Assembly: GCA_003281645.1 (NCBI GenBank) | Contig: QCBJ01000005.1 | Coordinates: forward strand, 1 to 64,000 | Length of the DNA stretch: 64,000 nucleotides | DNA from: Prochlorococcus sp. AG-347-G20 | GTDB taxonomy: Bacteria; Cyanobacteriota; Cyanobacteriia; PCC-6307; Cyanobiaceae | Direction: 5' to 3' | Shown: positions 11,513 through 13,046 of the stretch, piece by piece | Layout of the letters: the number at the start of each line of letters is the position of its first letter | How positions within the stretch are numbered: the stretch's first letter is position 1 | Position numbers and translations under genes: made by a program | The notes under the pieces: generated by a model | Seen by the model: the letters and a program-made list of their open reading frames with translations, nothing else | What the model was told of the DNA's origin: nothing | The model's database searches: none

Positions 11513-11565
11513 AAAACTTTTAGAAATACACATCACTTGCTAGAATCATTGAAATTAAATCCACA

Positions 11566-11629
11566 CATCTGACAGTTTCGGGTGATTTATTAATATTAAT
11601 TTCCCGTCAGATGGAGGCTAACCCGAAAC
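11566..11629 (+). promoter_or_regulatory. rpsB leader: H-type pseudoknot with competing hairpin
   Basis: Two interleaved perfect stems are visible. Stem 1 pairs CATCTGAC (11566-11573) with GTCAGATG (11606-11613), 8 bp. Stem 2 pairs GTTTCGGGT (11575-11583) with ACCCGAAAC (11621-11629), 9 bp. Loops are 1, 22 and 7 nt. An alternative hairpin pairs CGGG (11579-11582) with CCCG (11603-11606) stacked near stem 1, which would free ACCCGAAAC. The structure ends 11 nt before the rpsB ATG, so folding could cover the ribosome-binding region. Ribosomal protein S2 autoregulation through its leader is known in enterobacteria; applying it here is inference. Confidence 0.6.
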
Positions 11630-11640
11630 CCTTTTAAATT

Positions 11641-12345
11641 ATGGCTGTTGTATCACTATCAGAAATGATGGAAGCTGGTGCTCATTTTGGGCATCAAACC
11701 AGACGTTGGAACCCCAAGATGTCTAAGTACATATATTGCGCTAGAAATGGAGTTCATATTATTGATCTTGTAAAAACAGCATTGTGCATGAACAATGCGT
11801 ATAAATGGACGAGAAACGCAGCAAAAAGCGGTAAACGTTTCCTATTTGTCGGTACAAAAAAACAAGCATCAGATGTTGTAGCTCAGGAAGCTACACGCTG
11901 TGGAGCTGCATATGTAAATCAAAGATGGCTTGGAGGGATGCTGACTAATTGGACAACAATGAAAGCTAGGATTGAAAGATTAAAGGATCTAGAAAGAATG
12001 GAAAGTAGTGGTTCAATAGCAATGAGGCCTAAAAAAGAAGCTGCAGTATTAAGGAGAGAACTTGAAAGATTACAAAAATACTTAGGTGGACTTAAAGGCA
12101 TGAGAAGATTACCAGATGTAGTTGTATTGGTTGATCAGAGAAGAGAATCTAATGCAGTATTAGAAGCTAGAAAATTAGATATCTCATTAGTATCAATGTT
12201 GGATACAAATTGTGATCCGGATTTGTGTGAAGTGCCAATTCCTTGTAATGATGATGCCGTTAGATCAGTTCAACTTATTTTAGGAAGACTTGCAGATGCC
12301 ATAAATGAGGGTAGAAAGGGCTCTAATGCCGAAAGAAAAAATTAA
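11641..12345 (+). CDS. rpsB: 30S ribosomal protein S2
   Basis: A 234-residue S2 protein of the small ribosomal subunit. Diagnostic blocks are present: [19 protein letters not shown] at the N-terminus, GTKKQA, the [12 protein letters not shown] segment, and [19 protein letters not shown] near the C-terminus. The length is at the short end for bacterial S2. It heads the rpsB-tsf unit, which is conserved across bacteria, with tsf 44 bases downstream. The leader carries a predicted pseudoknot just upstream of the ATG, pointing to translational control. Confidence 0.97.
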
Positions 12346-12389: not shown

Positions 12390-13046
12390 ATGGGAAACAT
12401 TACAGCAAAACTTGTAAAAGATCTTAGAGACAAAACTGGCGCAGGAATGATGGACTGCAAAAAAGCACTAAACGAAACTGACGGAAATTTAGAAAAAGCT
12501 TTGGAATGGTTAAGAAAAAAAGGCATAGCTAGTGCTGAAAAGAAATCGGGAAGAGTAGCGGCCGAAGGGTCAATTGGTAGTTATATACATACTGGATCAA
12601 GAGTGGGAGTTTTACTAGAGTTAAATTGTGAAACTGATTTCGTTGCTAGAGGTGATATATTCCAATCTCTTTTGAAGGATGTCTCAATGCAAGTAGCAGC
12701 CTGTCCAAATGTTGAGTATGTATCAATTGATGAAATACCAGAAGATGTTGTGGAAAAAGAAAAACAGATTGAAATGGGTAGGGATGATTTGTCAGGAAAA
12801 CCAGAACAAATTAAAGAAAAAATAGTTGAAGGGAGAATAGCAAAAAGACTTAATGAGCTTGTTTTGCTTTCACAACCCTACATTAAAGATAGTTCTCTAA
12901 CAGTTGAGGATCTTGTTAAACAAGCAGCTGCAAAAATTGGGGAAAATATCAAAGTAAGACGCTTTACAAGATATACATTGGGTGAAGGTATCGAAAAAAA
13001 TCAGATGGACTTCGCTGAAGAGGTTGCATCAATGCAATCAAACTAG
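12390..13046 (+). CDS. tsf: elongation factor Ts
   Basis: A 218-residue EF-Ts, the guanine nucleotide exchange factor of EF-Tu. It has the N-terminal UBA-like domain ([18 protein letters not shown], residues 9-26) and the EF-Tu contact motif CETDFVAR near residue 80. It is shorter than the E. coli protein, as usual for cyanobacteria, where the second half of the core is reduced. It follows rpsB by 44 bases in the standard operon. The next gene begins five bases after its stop. Confidence 0.96.

Follow-up and report, generated by a model that had tools for sequence, protein, structure and literature searches.

A conserved P1-plus-pseudoknot leader upstream of rpsB in Prochlorococcus, a probable cyanobacterial form of the rpsB motif

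The rpsB leader of Prochlorococcus sp. AG-347-G20 (GCA_003281645.1) is probably a cyanobacterial form of the known rpsB motif, related to the Rfam families RF00127 and RF01815, by which ribosomal protein S2 would repress the translation of rpsB-tsf via a structure of P1 plus pseudoknot. The leader was studied in a window of 64,000 nucleotides, the whole stretch of DNA analysed (contig QCBJ01000005.1, positions 1 to 64,000). The P1-plus-pseudoknot structure is supported by the comparison of leaders, while we infer S2 as the ligand and the mechanism of repression. The rpsB motif, including its cyanobacterial occurrence, was known already (Meyer et al. 2009, PMC2704228). By these results, control of rpsB-tsf by S2 is probable for a photosynthetic genus of very high abundance and for Cyanobacteria broadly.

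Layout of the leader and the promoter-like box

All the features described here are on the forward strand. P1 is formed by CATCTGAC (11566-11573) and GTCAGATG (11606-11613) with 8 bp, and the pseudoknot stem by GTTTCGGGT (11575-11583) and ACCCGAAAC (11621-11629) with 9 bp. The two stems are interleaved, and their three loops measure 1, 22 and 7 nt. The preliminary description had reported two perfect interleaved stems at 11566-11629 and a pseudoknot ending 11 nt before the rpsB ATG; reading of the leader and of the ORF starting at 11641 confirmed the perfect pairing of both stems, the exact coordinates and the distance. With a first loop of 1 nt, all 8 and 9 pairs may not fit the classical H-type geometry simultaneously. 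In pseudoknot-free folding, the nested P1 fold resulted in -16.4 kcal/mol in comparison with -14.1 kcal/mol for the second stem alone.

A conserved unpaired CACA box (11562-11565) lies just 5' of P1; its C11564 was identical in all 144 distinct leaders compared, and the box is also present in the Rfam t44 consensus. The loop at 11584-11605 holds the variable P3 position, with no stable stem in this genome and no fold for 11584-11605 alone. G11584, which follows GGGT and is unpaired in P1 plus pseudoknot, was identical in 144/144 leaders and is present in E. coli. GGAGG (11613-11617) is a near-invariant element of the motif between the stems: it was exact in 64/64 genus, 36/40 family and 35/40 class distinct leaders and occurs also in E. 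coli. Downstream of the leader, rpsB (11641-12345) encodes ribosomal protein S2 of 234 aa, and the ORF has relatives in the genus, family and phylum. It is followed by an ORF of 218 aa (12390-13046) which, from its sequence, we take to be tsf, encoding elongation factor Ts. The gene order is thus the same as in the rpsB-tsf of E. coli.

An extended -10 promoter-like box, TGCTAGAAT, was found at 11538-11546 (TTTAGA-16-TAGAAT with TG). Of the distinct leaders, 64/64 of the genus, 40/40 of the family and 38/40 of the class carry the pattern TGnTAnnnT ahead of P1; in those of the genus and family it precedes P1 by 16–24 nt. Because of this conserved pattern before P1, the mRNA is expected to start near 11553, which is most likely the transcription start of rpsB. 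A start downstream of 11566, named beforehand as an observation that would speak against the structured leader, is not indicated. No published transcription start of Prochlorococcus rpsB was found in the open-licence PMC literature.

Conservation and covariation of P1 and the pseudoknot

The leaders were compared at the levels of genus, family (which we take to be Cyanobiaceae) and class (presumably Cyanobacteriia). In the family sample, an rpsB match was obtained in 130 of 131 genomes and 40 leaders were taken; the phylum sample, with matches in 135 of 136, provided 40 leaders of the same class and 20 of other classes. L052 and L060, situated at contig ends, were omitted. The merging of identical core regions resulted in 144 distinct leaders (64 genus, 40 family and 40 class). 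The stems were located by a script using GGGTG, a GGAGG-like box and ACCCG as anchors, which requires GGGTG or GGGTT and chooses the anchor set with the most pairing.

P1 and the pseudoknot precede rpsB in 108 of the 109 genus loci (a count that includes the window and possibly one genome twice), in 40/40 family loci and in 40/40 class loci. In L093, one P1 base is changed and the script anchor failed. Both stems of the E. coli leader were recovered by the same script, and the spacing from GGGTG to the P1 3' strand varied from 15 to 99 nt across the loci. The arrangement was detected by this script in 0 of the 20 rpsB loci from other classes of the phylum. Some of these 20 leaders display by eye a CACACGC...GGCGGAGG stem without GGGTG; stems of this kind in L193, L194, L196, L205 and L210 are perhaps a pseudoknot-less form of the motif, and L193 gave a weak match (E 0.053) with the cyanobacterial model R1 described below.

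The covariation was determined with the MAFFT alignment A1 of 37 leaders chosen for spread, in comparison with 500 shuffles and with slid versions. In A1, 94.2% of the cells were in standard pairs, compared to 85.2% in the shuffles and at most 50.6% in the slid versions. Two-sided changes were detected in 11 of 17 pairs (6.1 in the shuffles) and in 71 cells (19.3 in the shuffles). None of the 500 shuffles and none of the slid versions attained the observed percentage of pairing, numbers of two-sided pairs and cells or covariation score. The further pair types in A1 were not above chance, 24 compared to 21.5, a value reached by 62 of 500 shuffles. P1 had two-sided changes at 7 of 8 pairs with 97.2% of cells paired; the corresponding values of the pseudoknot were 4 of 9 pairs and 91.6%.

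In a tree-based test, the substitutions were re-placed on the tree in 60 simulated alignments, covering 144 leaders and 2346 column pairs. Pairs of P1 ranked 1, 2, 3 and 6 of the 2346. Only the pair 11572-11607 scored above all 60 simulations; the expected count was 0.15 for 11568-11611 and 2.4 and 6.4 for the two P1 pairs that followed, neither of which is significant by itself. Among the 144 leaders, none of the pseudoknot pairs reached significance because the core of the knot, GGGU/ACCC, hardly varies. The support of the pseudoknot therefore rests on the outer pairs and a few sequences: C-G is replaced by U-A at 11579/11625 in L188, the outer pairs are changed in L190 and others, and E. 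coli has G-C at the position equivalent to 11579/11625. The compensatory changes looked for in related leaders are thus present in both stems in A1, and those of P1 also in the tree-based test.

P1 and the interleaved stem exceed a chance arrangement. The explanation of the two stems as chance pairing in an AT-rich intergenic region is contradicted by the conservation across loci and by the compensatory changes; nothing spoke in its favour after the comparison, and it can be regarded as extremely improbable.

Relation to the rpsB motif and the probable role of S2

According to Meyer et al. 2009 (BMC Genomics 10:268, PMC2704228), the rpsB motif comprises P1, the variable stems P2 and P3, and a pseudoknot in which J2-3 pairs with a 3' extension after P1. 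The motif is listed there for Cyanobacteria, in which P2 is missing or very short; the claim of the preliminary description that no version had been described in this group was therefore wrong. In the main text of PMC2704228, Prochlorococcus is named once, as a genus in metagenome reads. The present leader resembles the motif in its position directly upstream of rpsB, in P1 with compensatory changes, in the pseudoknot between J2-3 (11575-11583) and the 3' extension, and in the absence of P2: there is 1 nt between the P1 and pseudoknot strands, and no stable P3 is formed in the window. It differs in having 9 pseudoknot pairs, whereas five were predicted in most groups (PMC2704228).

The Rfam family RF00127 (t44) aligned with the leader at 11544-11623 with 28.5 bits (E 4e-4 in 401 nt), sharing the anchors CACACA, GGGUG and UGGAGGCU. 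This leader lacks the inner stem of the t44 model. The score was below the gathering cut-off of 44 bits and decreased to 21.4 bits when the 5' flank was cut. The whole-genome search with RF00127 gave no match in this genome at E <= 10; in the control search, 6 of 14 control genomes matched, 1 of them over the cut-off. RF01815 (rpsB) had no match in the window at E <= 10. Its 40-bit cut-off was not exceeded anywhere in the genome of the studied strain, and it was exceeded in 0 of 78 class genomes, a weak negative result as the control genomes also gave 0/14. With 20 further loci, a t44 or RF01815 match at E <= 0.1 was obtained in 5, none over the cut-off, with RF01815 matching 3 of the 20 at 25.6–29.9 bits.

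While both Rfam models were below their cut-offs on the leader, the model R1, built from the 37 cyanobacterial leaders of A1, matched at E <= 0.001 in at least 115 of 146 class genomes, the training genomes being included and a following rpsB not being required. This is a lower bound, since R1 missed G474, the source of the training leader L188. In the whole genome of the studied strain, R1 matched 11560-11629 before rpsB with an E of 1.5e-18, the next match having 1.46. R1 also recovered the E. coli leader (L112:276-354): in a search of 73 kb, the match coincided with the annotated t44 site and had E = 2.8e-5. The two leaders share CACAC, P1, GGGGUG, P1', GUGGAGGC and AUAACCCC in the same order. 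In contrast, the E. coli knot has 5 bp, and the 24 nt that separate it from the ATG contain an SD-like core. Judged by these sequence comparisons, the leader is homologous to the S2-repressed rpsB leader of E. coli.

S2-dependent repression of the E. coli rpsB-tsf leader has been reported (PMC2704228; PMC10931766), the source of the S2 autoregulation being Aseev et al. 2008 as described in PMC2704228 and PMC10931766. According to the review PMC10931766, the mechanism of the S2 repression is unclear, S1 helps, the architecture is shared with the 16S site, and the SD and start codon of E. coli are outside the operator. The preliminary description had suggested a translational switch plausibly read by S2. 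A conserved pseudoknotted leader directly upstream of rpsB is supported, and since this leader is homologous to the S2-regulated one of E. coli, such a switch appears to be the best reading. The alternative is a constitutive translation enhancer or an RNA-stability element in place of an S2 switch. It would agree with a conserved fold near what is probably the start of the transcript, but the homology to a leader with reported S2-dependent repression speaks against it and makes it rather unlikely. No cyanobacterial experiment on the rpsB leader was found in the open-licence PMC literature.

The region between the knot and the ATG differs between the lineages. In every one of the 148 loci of the genus and family that were anchored, the pseudoknot stem was 9 bp long, or 10 bp in four of them; the 40 class loci outside the family had 5–9 bp (5 bp in 1, 6 in 5, 7 in 15, 8 in 16 and 9 in 3), lengths which the choice of the anchor set by maximum pairing biases toward structure. 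An SD-like core between the knot and the ATG was present in 40/40 class loci outside the family, in contrast to 0/148 in the genus and family, where the knot ends 8–15 nt before the ATG. Of the 54 ORFs in the window (>= 150 aa, first ATG), 3 had an SD-like core upstream, a smaller share than the 11% of random 17-mers; the lack of an SD before rpsB fits this general scarcity and is not special to this gene. The lineage contrast in the SD-like core and in the length of the knot makes the mechanism of S2 repression testable.

In the preferred reading, S2 repression of rpsB-tsf, free S2 in excess of 30S assembly would bind and stabilise P1 plus pseudoknot. In the family, the knot ending 8–15 nt before an SD-less ATG would be inside the ribosome footprint, and the initiation of rpsB would be blocked, presumably together with the expression of tsf. 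In the genus and family, the folding of the knot itself would hinder the 30S subunit. The steric block is an assumption because the SD and start codon of E. coli are outside the operator and the mechanism there is called unclear.

GGAGG was also considered as the Shine-Dalgarno of rpsB. This is unlikely, as its distance of 23 nt from the ATG exceeds that of a normal SD, and the class loci and E. coli carry GGAGG beside a separate SD-like core. GGAGG is the complement of the CCTCC with which the 16S of this genome is equipped near its 3' end, and a role as a ribosome standby site or a protein site is possible. Mimicry of the 16S sequence was rejected: the leader has words of at most 7 nt in common with its own 16S, and 500 shuffled leaders had mostly 7–8.

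Alternative folds of the leader

The preliminary description had also proposed a rival fold, in which CGGG (11579-11582) pairs with CCCG (11603-11606). Its formation would cost P1 one pair. CGGG pairing either with CCCG or with the pseudoknot 3' strand would then constitute the switch. The window and the majority of the family members can form this hairpin: with G-U counted as a pair, 99/108 genus and 32/40 family loci retain all 4 pairs, which exceeds the slid registers there, and the CC(C) located 5' of the P1 3' strand shows good conservation at the family level. On the same stretch, P1 with the CGGG/CCCG hairpin resulted in -12.3 kcal/mol compared to -9.7 kcal/mol for P1 alone. Against this, a single one of the 40 class loci retains all 4 pairs, and E. 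coli retains 1 of 4. The GGG is invariant, the 3' partner drifts outside the family, and CCCG is retained mostly within it. No two-sided change was detected, with 73.6% of cells paired compared to 73.7% in the shuffles; however, as the pseudoknot already fixes CGGG, covariation would hardly become visible. As a general switch, the CGGG/CCCG pairing was rejected, and a switch of this kind has a low probability as the explanation of the leader. Within the family, it may have a local role.

A second alternative, distinct from the CGGG/CCCG hairpin, is the pairing of the P1 5' strand with TCGGGTG (11566-11572/11578-11584), a 7 bp early hairpin in this genome, the 3' strand of which is marked by conservation and predicted folds. 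Its five outer (core) pairs, 11566-11570/11580-11584, were present in 37/37 leaders of A1, whereas 21–50% of cells were paired in the slid versions. No covariation was detected, the shuffles of A1 likewise giving 100%, because GGGUG never varies. The script found the five core pairs in 142 of 144 distinct leaders; L188 and L190, which it anchored differently and scored with 0 pairs, do pair in A1. In E. coli, only 3 of the pairs in a row are kept. In the predicted folds of the growing transcript, determined with a program that handles no pseudoknots, the early hairpin appeared in 137 of 144 leaders and P1 in 144/144 at some length. A description of the early hairpin was not found in the open-licence PMC literature searched, including the rpsB section of Meyer et al. 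2009.

The early hairpin together with the U-rich run after it could be read as a terminator, i.e. transcription attenuation. The terminator scan gave one site, exactly at the early hairpin (11566-11584), compared to 0.1 in the shuffles. Such attenuation is nevertheless very unlikely, as the stem of 7 pairs has 3 G-C, the U run is broken, and the leaders outside the genus carry other sequence after GGGUG.

In the repression model with S2, the nascent leader would first fold as the early hairpin, in which the 5' strands of P1 and of the pseudoknot pair with each other and the ATG-proximal region stays open. The P1 3' strand would then take over the P1 5' strand, and P1 formation would evict the early hairpin and free GGGU for the pseudoknot. 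It is conceivable, as a tentative proposal from the sequence comparisons, that across Cyanobacteria the leader hands off between these two exclusive folds, with S2 deciding between the encoded states.

Such a hand-off would be in line with the five core pairs kept in A1, with the invariant but unpaired G11584 and with the substitutions in P1: 25 transitions and 0 transversions were counted at 11568-11570, compared to 18 transitions and 4 transversions at 11571-11572 (p = 0.04, the comparison having been selected post hoc). Some of this could equally be due to a need for purines in the 3' strand of P1. Position 11571 was G in all 104 distinct leaders of the genus and family.
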